64,000 bases of DNA from a virus, in the IMG/VR virus record IMGVR_UViG_3300037189_006220, positions 56,519 to 120,518 of that record, one strand, 5' to 3'. Shown one piece after another: positions 4,950 to 13,214 of the stretch (position 1 is its first letter; each line of letters starts with the position of its first letter). The notes below the pieces were generated by a model, which had not been told where the DNA came from, made no database searches, and saw only the letters and a program-made list of their open reading frames with translations. Made by a program: the position numbers and the translations under genes.

Positions 4950-5086
4950 TTGACAAAAAATATGTCATGTCTTTTTAAGTTATTTAACATATTTATTCTC
5001 ACTAAGCTTAATGAGAATAAGCTGACAATAAATAATTATTATATAAGTTTTAGTGATTGTCTCGGTCTGTTGAGCAGCTCAGAATT
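4950..5086. other. AT-rich control region with 26-bp palindrome
   Basis: This gene-free stretch is far richer in A and T than its surroundings. It starts with TTGACA (4950-4955), which lacks a good -10 at the usual spacing, and contains a near-perfect palindrome at 4994-5019: arms TATTCTCA and TGAGAATA around a TAAGCTTA core, with only one mismatched pair (C5002/A5011). The core ACTAAGCTTA occurs again at 41022-41031. An operator or a replication-associated site are both possible; the sequence does not decide. Confidence 0.5.
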
Positions 5087-5165: not shown

Positions 5166-5249
5166 ATGAATGAATCACAAGACACCGTTGGCGGATACTG
5201 CATCCCCGTAGACCCGATGGACATGCTTCAGTGCGATTCCTGCCAGTAA
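5166..5249 (+). CDS. 27-aa CxxC peptide, RNR large-subunit tail-like
   Basis: A good binding site (GAAAGG, 5152-5157) sits eight bases before the ATG and the frame ends in GYCIPVDPMDMLQCDSCQ. This resembles the redox-active C-terminal tail of class I ribonucleotide reductase large subunits, which in many phages ends in a Cys-x-x-Cys followed by Gln or a few residues and delivers electrons to the active site. It has its own promoter (5087-5095) and terminator (5271-5306), so it is a separate transcription unit. nrdB lies 1 kb downstream but no large-subunit gene is present in the window. It may be a remnant or a functional detached tail; resemblance is by eye only. Confidence 0.55.
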   Translation: MNESQDTVGGYCIPVDPMDMLQCDSCQ

Positions 5250-5270: not shown

Positions 5271-5306
5271 GCCCGGTGCTCCTCGTAGTAGAGTTGAGTA
5301 CCGGGC
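5271..5306 (+). terminator. Terminator after the 27-aa gene
   Basis: GCCCGGT (5271-5277) pairs with ACCGGGC (5300-5306), followed by TTCTTTC. A smaller hairpin (AACCC/GGGTT, 5256-5267) precedes it. The 22-base loop resembles the long loop of the terminator at 4890. Confidence 0.6.
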
Positions 5307-5338
5307 TTCTTTCACCCCTCTAAGACAGCTAGGACATA

Positions 5339-6271
5339 ATGTACGCCCCTGAAACTCTGGTCTTGACATCGTCAGGACACAAGCCTCTTAGTGAGCTTGA
5401 TGGACACATGGTGGACGTATGGAATGGCGAAGAGTTTTCGCTAGTCCTAGTTGGACAGGCTGGAAAAGATAAGCCTCTAGTTACCGTTGTCTTTGATACC
5501 GGAGCAGAGATTACCTGCACTCCAGACCAAACGATGTTTGTCCAGAATGGATACTTCGACCACACAATTTCTCGTAAGCGAGTTGCAGAAGCACTGCCCG
5601 GAGAAAAGATTGTTAAGTCCGAGTTCCCACTCTTAGAGCACGGCACTGAGCTAATTCCTAATGCTTACACCCACGGCTTCTACACAGGAGCAGAACGGTT
5701 TAAGCGTCGCCCCGGAGTTGTATCAAGACTCGCTATCTATGGTGGTCGCAGACCATGTCTAGATGAGCTTGACCTAGACCCTCGGACAGATAAGACTAAC
5801 CTCTACTTCACTACAGAAATGCTTGGAGACTTCGAGGTTCCACTCAGCACTAAGTACTCACTAGAGTCCAAGCTTGAGTGGCTAGCTGGACTTTTTGATA
5901 GTGGTCTTATTAAAAGAAAAATTGGTTCACAACCAATGTGGCATCTCTACTCAAACAACTTTCAGTTTCTTAAAGACATGAAACTTTTCATGCAGACTTT
6001 GGGAAGCGATGTTCGAGTAGTAAAAAACGAAGATATGAACCGTCTTGAATACACACTACGGTTCTCTGGAAGACCGATGCAGAACTTACGAAAGCTCGGA
6101 GTCCCAGCAAAGTATATCACCATCCCTGAAGTATCTTACAAACGACGTGGAGTTGGTTATCCACGAATTGTGAGCATCATCGACAACAACCGCCGTGACA
6201 CGGTTTACACGCTCATGGAAAAGAAAACTCACCGAGCAGTGTTCAACGGCATCTTAAACGCAACCCAATAA
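5339..6271 (+). CDS. Free-standing degenerate intein (Hint + LAGLIDADG)
   Basis: The 310 residues look like an entire intein without flanking host protein. The opening APETLVLTSSGHKPLSEL is the N-terminal splicing block but starts with Met-Tyr where an intein needs Cys or Ser. Block B is TPDQ (61-64) where Thr-x-x-His is expected. LAGLFDSG (182-189) is a LAGLIDADG helix whose second acidic residue, the metal ligand, is Gly. The end, THRAVFNGILNATQ (297-310), is the C-terminal block, keeping His298 but not the usual terminal Asn. So splicing and endonuclease activity are probably both lost, yet the frame is intact with its own binding site (AGGA, 5331-5334) and an upstream in-frame stop. It sits directly before nrdB, where the large RNR subunit, a common intein host, would be expected. 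Confidence 0.8.
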   Translation: MYAPETLVLTSSGHKPLSELDGHMVDVWNGEEFSLVLVGQAGKDKPLVTVVFDTGAEITCTPDQTMFVQNGYFDHTISRKRVAEALPGEKIVKSEFPLLEHGTELIPNAYTHGFYTGAERFKRRPGVVSRLAIYGGRRPCLDELDLDPRTDKTNLYFTTEMLGDFEVPLSTKYSLESKLEWLAGLFDSGLIKRKIGSQPMWHLYSNNFQFLKDMKLFMQTLGSDVRVVKNEDMNRLEYTLRFSGRPMQNLRKLGVPAKYITIPEVSYKRRGVGYPRIVSIIDNNRRDTVYTLMEKKTHRAVFNGILNATQ

Positions 6272-6290: not shown

Positions 6291-7280
6291 ATGGCAATTC
6301 TAGGAACCGGCATCCAAGAGGGACTCCTCCTGAAGCCAGTCAAATATCAGTGGGCAATGGACTTGTACGACCAAGCAGTTGCCAATACTTGGTTCCCCAA
6401 CGAAATCCAACTAGGCGAAGACATCGCTGACTTCAAAAAGATGTCTGAGGATGAGCAACACGCTATTACGTTCTTGATGTCATTCTTTAACCCATCAGAG
6501 CTTATTGTGAATAAGGCTCTTGCCTTCGGTGTCTACCCTTACCTAAATGCACCCGAGTGCCACCTCTACCTTGCTAAGCAGATGTGGGAAGAAGCAAACC
6601 ACTGCATGTCGTTCGAGTACGTCCTTGAGACGTTCCCTGTAGACCGTAAGAAAATTTATGAACAGCATGTTGCTGTAGACAGCATCAAAGCCAAGGAAGA
6701 CTTCGAGGTCAAGTTCATTAAGCGCATGACCGAAGATACCATTGACATCAACACCGTAGAGGGAAAGCAGGACTTCGTCCGCAACCTCGTGGCTTACTCG
6801 GTCATCATGGAGGGTATCTGGTTCTACTCGGGCTTCATGGTGGCTCTGAGCTTCCGTCAGCGCAACCTACTTCGTAACTTTGCCTCACTGGTGGACTGGA
6901 TTGTCCGTGACGAGAGCCTTCACCTCAAGTTTGGTATCAACCTCATTCTTGAGGTACTCAACGAGAATCCTGAAATTGTCACAGACGAGTTCGCAGCCGA
7001 GATTCAGCAGATGATTTTTGATGCTGTTGACATGGAGATTACCTACAACAAGGAGCAGTTCCCCAACGGTATCCTTGGACTCAACGCTGACTATGTTAGC
7101 CAATACACCAAGTACCTCGCTGACCGCCGTCTTGAGGAGCTTGGATTCCCCCCACACTACAACGTGGGTAACCCTGCTAAGTGGATGGCTGCGGCTAATG
7201 ATACTCTTCAGCTTGTGAACTTCTTTGAGTCCACCAACACAAGCTATGAATCAAACGCATCAGCTGCTACTGGTAAGTAG
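6291..7280 (+). CDS. nrdB: Ribonucleotide reductase small subunit, class Ic-like
   Basis: 329 residues of the R2 fold. The metal ligands read as Glu70, Glu101, His104, Glu174, Glu208 and His211 (motifs NPSELIV, EEANH, VIMEGIWF, RDESLH). The first ligand is Glu rather than Asp, and the residue four after the first His, the radical Tyr in class Ia/Ib, is Phe108. This combination is the one known from Chlamydia R2c with its Mn/Fe cofactor. The enzyme supplies the oxidant for dNTP synthesis together with a large subunit that is not in this window. Binding site AAGGAGA precedes the ATG by eight bases. A bidirectional terminator follows. Confidence 0.92.
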   Translation: MAILGTGIQEGLLLKPVKYQWAMDLYDQAVANTWFPNEIQLGEDIADFKKMSEDEQHAITFLMSFFNPSELIVNKALAFGVYPYLNAPECHLYLAKQMWEEANHCMSFEYVLETFPVDRKKIYEQHVAVDSIKAKEDFEVKFIKRMTEDTIDINTVEGKQDFVRNLVAYSVIMEGIWFYSGFMVALSFRQRNLLRNFASLVDWIVRDESLHLKFGINLILEVLNENPEIVTDEFAAEIQQMIFDAVDMEITYNKEQFPNGILGLNADYVSQYTKYLADRRLEELGFPPHYNVGNPAKWMAAANDTLQLVNFFESTNTSYESNASAATGK

Positions 7281-9923: not shown

Positions 9924-9962
9924 ATGAGAACCTTACTGGTTTAATATGAAAAAATCAAGTTG

Positions 9963-10033
9963 CTGCCCCGTCTGGACTCGAACCAAAAATGCCTGAGTCA
10001 AAGTCAGGAGTGTTGCCATTACACCACGGGGCA
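9963..10033 (-). tRNA. tRNA-Gln (UUG)
   Basis: A cloverleaf fits on the minus strand with 7-bp acceptor TGCCCCG/CGGGGCA, anticodon arm CCTGA-CTTTGAC-TCAGG (anticodon TTG) and T loop TTCGAGT. Discriminator is G; CCA is not encoded. Confidence 0.93.
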
Positions 10034-10038
10034 AAGTA

Positions 10039-10362
10039 CTAAAAGGATTCCATATCCCTATCGTAATTCTTCTTTGCCTCTTCCATGTCAATCTGAATGG
10101 AAAGAATATCCATTACATTTTTGAAAAAGACTGCTTTGCTTCCCTGATTAGCTTCCATGCAGTATTCAAAGTTCCACTGAAGAATTGCTTTCCATCGGTC
10201 TTTTTCCGCCTGAATACCCTCTAAGTATCCTTCGTCGTGACCTTCGCTCCAGCCATCTTCGTATCCGGTAGTCTCACCAGCTTCGTAACCCTCTTCAAAG
10301 CCAGTAAGCCGAGCCATCTCAAGTTCTTTATTGATTGCCTTAGTAATTTTTTTAACTGACAT
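10039..10362 (-). CDS. Gly-repeat helical protein, 107 aa
   Basis: The central part contains a regular G[YWF][ED]xG pattern (GFEEGYEAGETTGYEDGW, continuing GHDEGYLEG) that gives a four-residue period, as in small coiled phage proteins with GxxxG contacts. A basic N-terminus (SVKKITKAINKELEMA) and a longer helical C-terminus follow. Start is taken at the ATG at 10362 because TACAAT lies exactly six bases upstream and there is no binding site; a 12-codon extension is possible. It lies between tRNA-Gln and tRNA-Asn. Function unknown. Confidence 0.6.
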   Translation of the reverse strand: MSVKKITKAINKELEMARLTGFEEGYEAGETTGYEDGWSEGHDEGYLEGIQAEKDRWKAILQWNFEYCMEANQGSKAVFFKNVMDILSIQIDMEEAKKNYDRDMESF

Positions 10363-10368
10363 ATCTAG

Positions 10369-10374
10369 ATTGTA
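10369..10374 (-). promoter_or_regulatory. -10 box of a leaderless-type gene
   Basis: TACAAT on the minus strand, six bases before the ATG at 10362, with no Shine-Dalgarno sequence between. Confidence 0.45.
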
Positions 10375-10457
10375 TATCAGAATATAAAAAAGTGCCATTT
10401 GATTTACACGGGGATGGCAACCGTGCCTACAGAATGCTTACGCCGAGTTCTGTATCG

Positions 10458-10530
10458 CTCCCCGACTTGGACTCGAACCAAGAACTCCCGAGTTAACAGC
10501 TCGGCACTCTGCCAATTGAGTTATCGAGGA
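10458..10530 (-). tRNA. tRNA-Asn (GUU)
   Basis: Acceptor TCCTCGA/TCGGGGA, anticodon arm CCGAG-CTGTTAA-CTCGG (anticodon GTT), T loop TTCGAGT. CCA not encoded. One base separates it from tRNA-Thr. Confidence 0.93.
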
Positions 10531-10531
10531 A

Positions 10532-10607
10532 TGGGGCCCCCTACCGGAATCGAACCGATGACATCCATATTACAAGTATGGCACTCTACCAACTGAGTTA
10601 AGGGGGC
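10532..10607 (-). tRNA. tRNA-Thr (UGU)
   Basis: Acceptor GCCCCCT/AGGGGGC, anticodon arm CCATA-CTTGTAA-TATGG (anticodon TGT), T loop TTCGATT. The sequence after the acceptor reads C-CCA, so a 3' CCA appears to be encoded. Confidence 0.93.
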
Positions 10608-10617
10608 AAGTATTAAG

Positions 10618-11340
10618 TTATGGAGATACTCTACCATTTTTATTGAAGGCAGACCAAGTCGCAGGAAAAAGAATCTGAAACTCTTCTTCCATCTTCATTG
10701 CGACATTCTCAATCTCCCACTGAGGCTTGGTAGAAAACGTAGCGTTCCCATCATCAACACGCAGAGATAGAAATGCCATCAGCGAGCGAGCATTACAAGT
10801 TGCGTACATCTCAGAGAATAGACCAACAGGAAGCACGGAACGAGCAACCTCATTAGCCATACCGTCCTCTAGAAGTTCTTTGTACGCCTTCCATGCCTTA
10901 CGGTAGGACTTTTCCATTACGGCATTAGTGAGTGGCGTAAGAGCAGGATGACCAGATACCAAGTCGGGGTGTGCAGATGACCCCTGCTGAATAAGAGGAC
11001 GAGTCGGAGGGTATACCCAGAACTTTGGCTCCATCTCCTTATAGCGAGCAGATACCTCGTTGTACGACCAGCCAATGCGGTGACGCATGAACTCACGGAA
11101 TACAAAGATAGGAGCCGAAATACGGAACGTCATCGAGTTGTGCTCAAAGGGAGACCCATGTCGGTTCTTTACCAAGTAGTTAATAAGCTTGGCATCTGCT
11201 CCCGGGAGATATTCCTCAAGGTCAAGACCAGTGGAGACACGAGCTGCTGCCGCAATTGATGCATCTGACCCTACGCTCTGTACAAGCTCAACAGTCATTT
11301 CATTACTTAGCTGAATCACGTAGTCTTCCGATTTCATCAT
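10618..11340 (-). CDS. thyX: Flavin-dependent thymidylate synthase ThyX
   Basis: 240 residues. The ThyX signature is present as RHRIGWSYNEVSARY (86-100); eight residues separate RHR from the conserved Ser, one more than in the textbook RHRx7S. NRHGSPFEHNSMTF (59-72) and the C-terminal QWEIENVAMKM block also fit. The enzyme makes dTMP from dUMP using FAD, NADPH and methylene-tetrahydrofolate, and pairs with the dCMP deaminase at 2802. Start ATG at 11340, overlapping the DUF3310 gene by 38 bases. ThyX rather than ThyA is usual for actinobacteria and their phages. Confidence 0.95.
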   Translation of the reverse strand: MMKSEDYVIQLSNEMTVELVQSVGSDASIAAAARVSTGLDLEEYLPGADAKLINYLVKNRHGSPFEHNSMTFRISAPIFVFREFMRHRIGWSYNEVSARYKEMEPKFWVYPPTRPLIQQGSSAHPDLVSGHPALTPLTNAVMEKSYRKAWKAYKELLEDGMANEVARSVLPVGLFSEMYATCNARSLMAFLSLRVDDGNATFSTKPQWEIENVAMKMEEEFQILFPATWSAFNKNGRVSP

Positions 11341-11548
11341 TTATGTAGAAAATTGCCTTATTAAGGTCTTCGATTTGTTTCTCTAGTTGAGCCTTATCAG
11401 CCTCGTCTTTGAGACCGGCCCGCCACAGATACTTAATAGCATTACCAATATTGAAGTTCCGGTGTCGCGTTACCTGAATACACTCAAGACCGGATGGGTC
11501 AGAGGTGTAGTGCTTAGGATGATTTACCGGGTCATGCTCAGACTTCAT
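11303..11548 (-). CDS. DUF3310 protein
   Basis: 81 residues with the family hallmark DPVNHPKHYTSDPSGLECI followed by NIGNAIKYLWRAGLKD and a helical end (EKQIEDLNKAIFYINDEI). DUF3310 proteins are widespread in phages, are sometimes labelled nucleotide kinase-like, and often sit next to nucleotide-metabolism genes, as here with thyX. The start is the ATG at 11548, preceded by AAAGGAAA; a further 12 codons upstream are open but would skip this binding site. Confidence 0.88.
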   Translation of the reverse strand: MKSEHDPVNHPKHYTSDPSGLECIQVTRHRNFNIGNAIKYLWRAGLKDEADKAQLEKQIEDLNKAIFYINDEIGRLRDSAK

Positions 11549-11705
11549 CAGTTTCCTTTTGCCAACCCGTGATATCGACCACATTTACTAAAAGAAGGTA
11601 CTCGCGACCATTATCAAAGTAGCTTGCGGTCTTACCCTCACGGGTGACAATTCCTGCTTCTTCCATCTCATCAAGAAGCTTCATTCTGACGTTATTGTCG
11701 TTCAT
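11538..11705 (-). CDS. Small hypothetical protein, 55 aa
   Basis: ATG at 11705; AGGATA and a TAGGAT box six bases before the ATG are the same bases, so either SD-led or leaderless initiation is possible. The product has a helix (RMKLLDEMEEAGIVTREG) then a beta-rich end (EYLLLVNVVDITGW), a layout like a small winged-helix fragment. It overlaps the DUF3310 start by 11 bases. Function unknown. Confidence 0.6.
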   Translation of the reverse strand: MNDNNVRMKLLDEMEEAGIVTREGKTASYFDNGREYLLLVNVVDITGWQKETDEV

Positions 11706-11726
11706 ACGAATATCCTAACATATGAG

Positions 11727-11807
11727 TGGGCTTGAAGGGACTTGAACCCTCACGTCCGAAGACACTGGAACCTAAATCCAGCGTGTCTGCCATTTCACCA
11801 CAAGCCC
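11727..11807 (-). tRNA. tRNA-Leu (UAG)
   Basis: Acceptor GGGCTTG/CAAGCCC, anticodon arm CTGGA-TTTAGGT-TCCAG (anticodon TAG), long variable arm TGTCTTCGGACG, T loop TTCAAGT. Discriminator A, no CCA encoded. Confidence 0.93.
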
Positions 11808-11811
11808 AGAA

Positions 11812-12477
11812 TTACTTTACTGCAAGTTTCTTATTGACCCAAACTTGGTCTTGGATTCCAAAGCCCCACTCATAAGAGACATCTACTAGAGCAAATCCGC
11901 TATGTTGCATAAACGAAGCAACCTCTAGATTATTTCGATGACTAAAGTGCGTGGACTCAGTCTCTGTTTCTAGATGTAGAACCTTAATCTTATTTAGGTA
12001 GTCTCCTAACCCAAGAAGTGTTTGATAAGTAAATCCTTCGACATCAACTTTGACTACATCAATAAAACTGCTACGCAGACCGATAGAGGTAAAGAGACTA
12101 TCCAGCCGAGTCACTCGAACAGGAATTACTTCATATTTACCCACAAAGACTGCCTCAGAAGTAATCTTTTTAGCACTCATCGACGAGCACCCAGCCAAGT
12201 CTTTATCATCCGAGATGACCTGCTGAAAACTGGTTAGCCCATTATAGTCAGAGACTGCTGTCTCATAGACTTCAAACTCCGGGTATCGATGCCGAGTCTC
12301 AGCCACAGCAATAGGATTAGCGTCAATAGCAATGACTCGCTTACCACCTAGCTTTTCACGCAGATACTCTGCGTCATCACCATCACGAGTACCGACATCA
12401 ATAACTACCCCAGCCTCACCCCCACCAAAATAGGCGCGATAGTTTTCAACGACTGGTTCTAACCACTTATTTTCCAC
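11812..12477 (-). CDS. FkbM-family SAM methyltransferase
   Basis: 221 residues with a Rossmann SAM-binding start (VVIDVGTRDGDDAEYLRE, 24-41), the acidic strand end IDANP (51-55) and the FkbM block DVVKVDVEGFTYQTLLGLGD. FkbM enzymes methylate hydroxyls of sugars or small molecules, so a surface glycan, nucleotide sugar or modified base are candidate targets. The frame is open for another 39 codons upstream but those are the bodies of tRNA-Pro and tRNA-Ser, so the first possible start is the GTG at 12477, only one base after the tRNA-Pro 3' end. No binding site is available. Confidence 0.75.
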   Translation of the reverse strand: MENKWLEPVVENYRAYFGGGEAGVVIDVGTRDGDDAEYLREKLGGKRVIAIDANPIAVAETRHRYPEFEVYETAVSDYNGLTSFQQVISDDKDLAGCSSMSAKKITSEAVFVGKYEVIPVRVTRLDSLFTSIGLRSSFIDVVKVDVEGFTYQTLLGLGDYLNKIKVLHLETETESTHFSHRNNLEVASFMQHSGFALVDVSYEWGFGIQDQVWVNKKLAVK

Positions 12478-12478
12478 G

Positions 12479-12552
12479 TCGGGATGACAGGACTTGAACC
12501 TGCGACATCCTGTTCCCAAAACAGGCACTCTACCAAGCTGAGCTACATCCCG
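12479..12552 (-). tRNA. tRNA-Pro (UGG)
   Basis: Acceptor CGGGATG/CATCCCG, anticodon arm CCTGT-TTTGGGA-ACAGG (anticodon TGG), T loop TTCAAGT. CCA not encoded; the FkbM start codon follows after one base. Confidence 0.93.
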
Positions 12553-12553
12553 G

Positions 12554-12640
12554 CGGAAGTGACAGGATTCGAACCTGCGGTTGGCTTTCACCAACTCTTG
12601 TTTTCAAGACAAGCACCATAAGCCTCTCGGTCACACTTCC
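12554..12640 (-). tRNA. tRNA-Ser (UGA)
   Basis: Acceptor GGAAGTG/CACTTCC, anticodon arm CTTGT-CTTGAAA-ACAAG (anticodon TGA), long variable arm GTTGGTGAAAGCCAAC, T loop TTCGAAT. One base separates it from tRNA-Pro. Confidence 0.94.
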
Positions 12641-12666
12641 AAGAAAAGCCTAGCATAAGAATAAAA

Positions 12667-12714
12667 CAGAACCCCCTCACCGCCTATAAATAGATATCGG
12701 AATTGGGGGTTCTG
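12667..12714 (-). terminator. Terminator upstream of the tRNA-Ser unit
   Basis: CAGAACCCCC (12667-12676) pairs with GGGGGTTCTG (12705-12714); read from the minus strand it is followed by TTTTATTC. It isolates the tRNA-Ser/Pro/FkbM/Leu/thyX run from the tRNA-Gly unit. Confidence 0.75.
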
Positions 12715-12868
<154 letters not shown>

Positions 12869-12873
12869 GTACA

Positions 12874-12909
12874 AACCCCCGGCACTCTTTCGAGCTTGTT
12901 CCGGGGGTT
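12874..12909. terminator. Hairpin terminator between tRNA-Gly and the RNA candidate
   Basis: AACCCCCGG (12874-12882) pairs with CCGGGGGTT (12901-12909) around an 18-base loop. On the minus strand the stem is followed by TGTACGCGG, with no T run, so it may act as a processing hairpin instead of a terminator. Confidence 0.5.
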
Positions 12910-12916
12910 ATAAGTG

Positions 12917-13090
12917 TGAGTGGGTGGATTGCGTTTTACCACCACGGGTTTCCAGCAGAACATTAGTATGTACCGCACCCGACCACCTCTTTTACCCGCT
13001 AAGGCAGGGCGCTAACCCGAGGTGTGCTTTAGGCTCCTACTGGAAGAGCACATTCAGCCATCACTCCGCTCAACCCGTCGGTCTTGCGTT
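12917..13090 (-). ncRNA. Unassigned structured RNA candidate in the tRNA cluster
   Basis: About 170 bases between tRNA-Gly and tRNA-Tyr hold no ORF or tRNA but fold well on the minus strand. Stems visible are GAGTG/CACTC closing the whole (with TGG/CCA inside), TGTGCT/AGCACA, CACCTC/GAGGTG, and CGGGT/ACCCG enclosing ACAT/ATGT. CGGGT recurs four times, so alternative pairings exist. The T4 tRNA cluster also carries stable RNAs of unknown role, which makes a phage ncRNA here plausible. It could instead be a decayed pair of tRNAs. Confidence 0.4.
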
Positions 13091-13129
13091 ATATATATGG
13101 TAACACATAAAAATAAATAGTGCAACTGG

Positions 13130-13214
13130 TGGTGGCGGATGAGAGATTTGCACTCCCGAAGGGGAACCCAGCTGATTTACAGTCAGCCCTCGTTGGCTAC
13201 TTGAGTAATCCGCC
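13130..13214 (-). tRNA. tRNA-Tyr (GUA)
   Basis: Acceptor GGCGGAT/ATCCGCC, anticodon arm GCTGA-CTGTAAA-TCAGC (anticodon GTA), long variable arm CCCCTTCGGGA, discriminator A and an encoded CCA (13130-13132). A TACACT box at 13225-13230 upstream could be its promoter. Confidence 0.93.

Follow-up and report, generated by a model that had tools for sequence, protein, structure and literature searches.

Why does a gene that encodes an intein and no host protein stand before nrdB in a phage genome, and what has its product become? The window (the whole 64,000-nt stretch that was analysed) has the gene order 27-aa tail ORF (5166-5249), intein-derived ORF (5339-6271), and nrdB (6291-7280), all on the plus strand. 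The nrdB gene encodes the class I RNR small subunit (PF00268, E=5e-76), which is 80-84% identical to Microbacteriaceae NrdB. The phage probably infects freshwater bacteria of Microbacteriaceae type. No NrdA was found in the whole 120.5-kb record, which is linear and possibly incomplete. Eight tRNA genes (Gln, Asn, Thr, Leu, Pro, Ser, Gly, and Tyr) are located on the minus strand at 9962-13214 of the window.

Homology, fold, and residues of the stand-alone protein

The product of ORF 5339-6271 is very probably a domesticated (exapted) intein. The ORF is an open frame of 310 aa with an ATG start, preceded by AGGA at 5331-5334 and followed by nrdB after a gap of 19 nt. In a tblastn search against public phages, 98% of the ORF could be aligned with NrdA inteins, among them those of Corynebacterium phage Darwin (32%, E=6e-43), PG07, PhAER-4, phiTE, and others. 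The ORF begins at intein residue 1 and stops at the intein end, and extein is absent from both sides. The Pfam match to Intein_splicing (E=0.0012) is under the curated cut-off. Since the Pfam and NCBIfam matches are merely weak, ordinary annotation would miss this ORF.

The AF2 model of the 310-aa protein has a pLDDT of 86 and a pTM of 0.86. Foldseek matched the model to the intein endonucleases TliVMA, PI-PfuI, and PI-SceI in the PDB and to phage NrdA inteins with a TMq of 0.87. The predicted order of domains is Hint-LAGLIDADG-Hint. The predicted Hint fold spans the N- and C-terminal blocks, and two predicted LAGLIDADG helices (residues 109-117 and 175-189) form a saddle as in PI-PfuI and PI-SceI. 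Both Hint and LAGLIDADG were found by searches with the sequence and with the fold. The full-length alignment, the fold, and the absence of extein uphold the claim of the preliminary description, made from the sequence alone, that a stand-alone intein gene sits before nrdB; its reading had depended on the presence of a Hint fold.

The states of the splicing and nuclease residues were read from the alignment to spliced inteins, and by these residues the protein is splice-dead and nuclease-dead. The Met start codon (5339-5341) occupies the position of the intein nucleophile, which is Cys1 in spliced relatives. Gln64 (5528-5530) occupies the position of the block B catalytic His. Ala118 (5690-5692) and Gly189 (5903-5905) occupy the positions of the first and second LAGLIDADG catalytic acids. 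The block F Cys is replaced by Thr, which rules out class 3 splicing, where the block F Cys serves in the absence of Cys1. The protein ends in NATQ directly before the stop codon and has no +1 residue; the alignment of this end is ambiguous by one residue, which is immaterial without a C-extein. The protein therefore has neither the combination of Cys or Ser at position 1, TxxH in block B, Asn or Gln at the C-terminus, and Cys, Ser, or Thr at +1, nor the class 3 set.

The preliminary description had named Met at the nucleophile, Gln at the block B His, and Gly at the second LAGLIDADG acid, and the alignment bears out all three. It had overlooked the loss of the first acid. It had also listed the missing terminal Asn as a mark of lost function. 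The Asn is indeed absent, but in most spliced NrdA inteins of the group the last residue, ahead of Cys+1, is Gln (TGQ|C), so its absence is not in itself a loss.

Relatives of the locus, the detached NrdA tail, and the hairpin

A scan with NrdB yielded 32 loci. One of them (L034) has the intein in frame in nrdA; this intein retains C1, the block B His, and TGQ|C, so its splicing residues are intact, and its nuclease acids are already lost. Two loci (L028 and L036) have the tail ORF, the free intein ORF, an intein-free nrdA about 20 nt further on, and nrdB. Three loci (L008, L035, and L037) share the arrangement of the window, with the tail ORF, the free intein ORF, and nrdB, and no nrdA was found in their records. 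Beside the window, the free ORF is thus present in five related records, three times before nrdB and twice before an intein-free nrdA. The six free copies represent three deep lineages that are 38-42% identical to one another. In all free copies, C1 and the His of block B are missing, as are the block F Cys and a C-extein, and both LAGLIDADG acids are replaced in every free copy and in L034.

The other records from the NrdB scan are intein-free, although some of them end too near nrdB for the flank to be judged. Several relatives whose NrdB is near-identical do not have the free ORF. Since many close relatives are without it, the ORF is dispensable. Further scans for free-standing copies gave no additional records. 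The intein was not found in 300 sampled host-family genomes, in a search without a positive control.

The intein of L034 is inserted directly before the Cys of SNLC in nrdA, which we take to be the equivalent of the catalytic Cys of E. coli NrdA. The SNL|CTEI site is intact in the intein-free nrdA genes of L028 and L036, and the nrdA genes of Microbacteriaceae hosts have the empty site too.

The NrdB proteins of the phages are 66-93% identical among themselves. No NrdA above the family cut-off was found in the record that holds the window (G000) and in 27 of the 31 nrdB-related records, which may be incomplete. This distribution suggests that nrdB-only phages, which often carry the tail peptide, pair these components with host NrdA. 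In L020 (contig 3300004369_000003), an ORF with NPCAEQSLESGEMC at the start of the locus, about 5 kb upstream of nrdB, resembles class II RNR, so that parts of two RNR classes may be present in this phage.

The 27-aa ORF at 5166-5249 (MNESQDTVGGYCIPVDPMDMLQCDSCQ) is a separately encoded NrdA C-terminal redox tail. Its homologues are separate ORFs in Microbacteriaceae and phages as well as the C-terminal ends of NrdA in Aeromicrobium and Cellulomonas, where the tail is fused. It ends in QCDSCQ, which matches the NrdA redox tail. The tail motif DPMDLLQCDSCQ is that of the redox-active C-terminal tail of class I NrdA, which is a gene of its own in Microbacteriaceae and their phages. Of 76 actinobacterial nrdAB loci that could be scored, 65 encode the tail in an ORF of its own, 20-47 codons long, which directly follows nrdA and often overlaps its stop codon; judging by their titles, all 65 come from Microbacteriaceae or close kin. 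The other 11 have the tail fused to NrdA (Aeromicrobium, Nocardioides, Cellulomonas, Actinotalea, Ornithinimicrobium, and others). Where the tail is separate, the Cys pair is missing from the end of NrdA.

In the phage loci L034, L028, and L036, nrdA is likewise tailless and the tail has its own ORF, which also occurs in many nrdB-only phages. The loci behind this observation are the window, the host loci L083-L161, and L008, L009, L014-L020, L023-L028, and L034-L037. A DNA-pattern scan for further tail ORFs gave no new loci, the pattern being too degenerate. From sequence, the system resembles a class I RNR whose swinging arm is detached. It is apparently undescribed; a literature search gave no paper on the Microbacteriaceae case.

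A predicted stable hairpin with an invariant TAGAGTNGAG is located between the tail ORF and the intein ORF (5271-5306, plus strand) and is a candidate terminator, attenuator, or operator. Its folding z is -3.0 in the window and -4.9 in L008. It is present in five of the seven intein-carrying loci, namely the window, L008 (about 4980-5022), L035, L037, and L034 (about 2550-2588), where it lies before the intein-bearing nrdA; it is absent from L028 and L036 and from all six intein-less loci inspected. No Rfam family reached the gathering score near the hairpin. TAGAGTNGAG was rejected as a genome-wide phage motif, with two matches in the window, which is near chance.

Descent, selection, and possible function

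In the likelihood tree, the six free copies form one clade (100/97) with L034 as its sister (100/100), and all other phage NrdA inteins fall outside this group. The tree is unrooted, and the direction from cis to free is taken from the spliced inteins beyond this group, which are intact. The free ORF has a patchy distribution over the NrdB tree, so losses or recombination also occurred. The single clade suggests that the intein was liberated once and has been retained for a long time since. The simplest history starts from an intein such as those inserted in phage nrdA immediately ahead of the catalytic Cys (SNL|C). Its nuclease acids would have been lost first, while it still spliced, as in L034. 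A single event would then have released it as a separate gene of the RNR operon, upstream of nrdA, after which its splicing residues would have disappeared; the residues, the tree, and the arrangement of the genomes support these steps. The nrdA gene would later have been lost in two lineages. The freed intein would have been retained as an ordinary protein, as the low dN/dS and the preserved frame and fold suggest.

The dN/dS ratio was obtainable in one trio only (L008, L035, and L037). The free ORFs of L008 and L035 differ by 86 synonymous and 37 nonsynonymous changes (dN/dS 0.093), and those of L035 and L037 differ by 11 synonymous and one nonsynonymous change (dN/dS 0.025). The corresponding values for NrdB in the same two pairs are 0.016 and 0.011. 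Since dS is saturated between the deep lineages, selection on the window copy is inferred from its open frame, its fold, and its pattern of constraint. Simulated neutral drift of similar size left 0 of 1000 frames open, with 9 to 14 stops on average, in a simple model without indels.

The constraint on the protein has shifted. Column conservation is 0.48 for Hint vs 0.37 for LAGLIDADG among seven spliced inteins, and 0.32 vs 0.54 among four free lineages. The difference of differences is 0.33 (permutation p about 5e-5), and only one of 305 circular shifts is as high. Within the free-standing clade, the LAGLIDADG, endonuclease-derived domain (residues 95-232; 5621-6034, plus strand) is conserved best. 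Residues R130, K192, R193, W201, R226, and R241, which are newly invariant, are located on predicted strands in or flanking this domain; for K192, R193, W201, R226, and R241 these strands follow the LAGLIDADG helices. E119, also newly invariant, is located just after the first LAGLIDADG motif. Some of these states predate liberation because they are common to L034.

By the trio dN/dS, the single clade, the open frames, and the lost acids, the free intein is both immobile and under purifying selection, which are among the marks of a domesticated mobile element, as would be vertical inheritance and a demonstrated new function. The preliminary description had left a choice between selection for another function and a very recent loss. 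The former is favoured by the six records in three deep lineages, their union in one clade, and the purifying selection among close copies.

The best explanation overall, which we hold with moderate confidence, is a domesticated intein whose working part is the LAGLIDADG domain and which serves the RNR operon as a non-cleaving nucleic-acid binder. The conservation pattern leads us to infer that the LAGLIDADG domain is the conserved working part and that Hint is now mainly a scaffold; whatever the protein does must depend on LAGLIDADG and on neither cutting nor splicing. A binding or regulatory role through this domain, as read from sequence, is a tentative assignment. The protein would tune the RNR operon of the phage, and the conserved hairpin region ahead of its start codon is one place where it could do so. 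The hairpin is a candidate target of the intein-derived protein, or it may simply be a terminator; L028 and L036, however, have the protein without the hairpin. Alternatively, the protein would occupy the nrdA homing site. Sequences resembling that site gave only background-level matches in the window and near the ORF. The net charge of the LAGLIDADG domain shows no clear rise compared with spliced inteins, and hence no charge sign of DNA binding. It is a possibility of similar, limited weight that a phage intein became a non-splicing, non-cleaving RNR regulator or assembly factor through its former homing-endonuclease domain and was kept after nrdA was lost.

A partnership with RNR itself is rather unlikely but comes next. 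The free intein protein would bind NrdB (or phage or host NrdA) and aid assembly, metal loading, or control, with no binding of nucleic acid. The gene is always in the RNR operon and stays beside nrdB even in records without nrdA. A precedent is the intein inside R2 of Aquifex aeolicus, which raises both the iron loading and the activity of that subunit (PMC8772380). The surface of the protein may have been reused. However, the most constrained domain is the former DNA binder and not the Hint domain that sat by the RNR active site, and the relatives with near-identical NrdB that are without the ORF also argue against a partner of NrdB.

It is improbable that the protein, though nuclease-dead, has kept its recognition of the empty nrdA site and guards phage or host nrdA from the active homing endonucleases of rival phages. 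The empty sites in host nrdA and in the intein-free nrdA beside the free copies of L028 and L036 would suit such a shield, but the records of the window, L008, and L037 have no nrdA to protect, and the 300 host-family genomes yielded no active relative of the intein, again without a positive control.

A decaying relic, stranded at the loss of nrdA and now drifting, is very improbable. All catalytic residues are lost, Hint is diverging fast, and phage nrdA remnants with inteins are known from Campylobacter phage Cpt10 (PMC3653736). This reading is largely refuted by six open frames across deep branches, the dN/dS of 0.025-0.093 among close relatives, the high-confidence fold, and the domain-specific constraint. 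The reading of the ORF as an ordinary nrdA intein severed from its host gene by an artefact of assembly or recombination, for which the linear and possibly incomplete record could be cited, is refuted by the same free arrangement, with its own start and stop codons, in independent contigs from other metagenomes; the assembly break that would have undone the preliminary description is thereby ruled out.

Comparison with known systems

Inteins are seen mostly as selfish elements or as conditional splicing switches. A conserved clade that neither splices nor cuts, as its residues indicate, would represent a route from an intein to an ordinary gene. The path would be visible in living relatives, from the spliced and nuclease-dead intein to the free intein beside an intact nrdA and then to the free intein without nrdA, which makes the question of what an intein can become directly testable. 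We know of no precedent, after a literature search, for a splice-dead and nuclease-dead yet conserved intein in phages. If the reading is true, this protein would be, to our knowledge, the first domesticated intein in a virus and the first to give up both activities.

The preliminary description had stated that no free-standing, splice-dead intein was known, which is corrected by HO and WHO of yeast. These are stand-alone, non-splicing intein derivatives that still keep nuclease activity; HO is domesticated, both have a C-terminal zinc finger, and their closest intein is VDE, the yeast VMA1 intein (PMC7282813). The window protein is likewise stand-alone, extein-free, and non-splicing by its residues. 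Unlike HO and WHO, it has lost both nuclease acids and has no zinc finger, as it contains no CxxC repeats and ends at the intein end.

The bacterial WhiA (DUF199) is a transcription factor with a nuclease-dead LAGLIDADG domain (PMC3781837). Both proteins have a LAGLIDADG domain that is without catalytic residues and kept for another function. However, WhiA binds DNA by a C-terminal HTH, has no Hint, and is not an intein derivative beside its former host gene.

Campylobacter phage Cpt10 has an nrdA remnant with an intein beside nrdB, and nrdB-only phages have also been recorded (PMC3653736). Cpt10 and the window both have intein sequence near nrdB after the breakdown of nrdA. The Cpt10 sequence is a pseudogene with nrdA fragments, whereas the window ORF is a clean, conserved gene with no extein remnants.

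The spliced RIR1/NrdA inteins (Darwin, PG07, PhAER-4, phiTE, and L034) are full-length homologues of the window protein with the same fold and origin. These inteins interrupt NrdA and keep their splicing residues, whereas the window protein is extein-free and both its splicing and its nuclease residues are gone.
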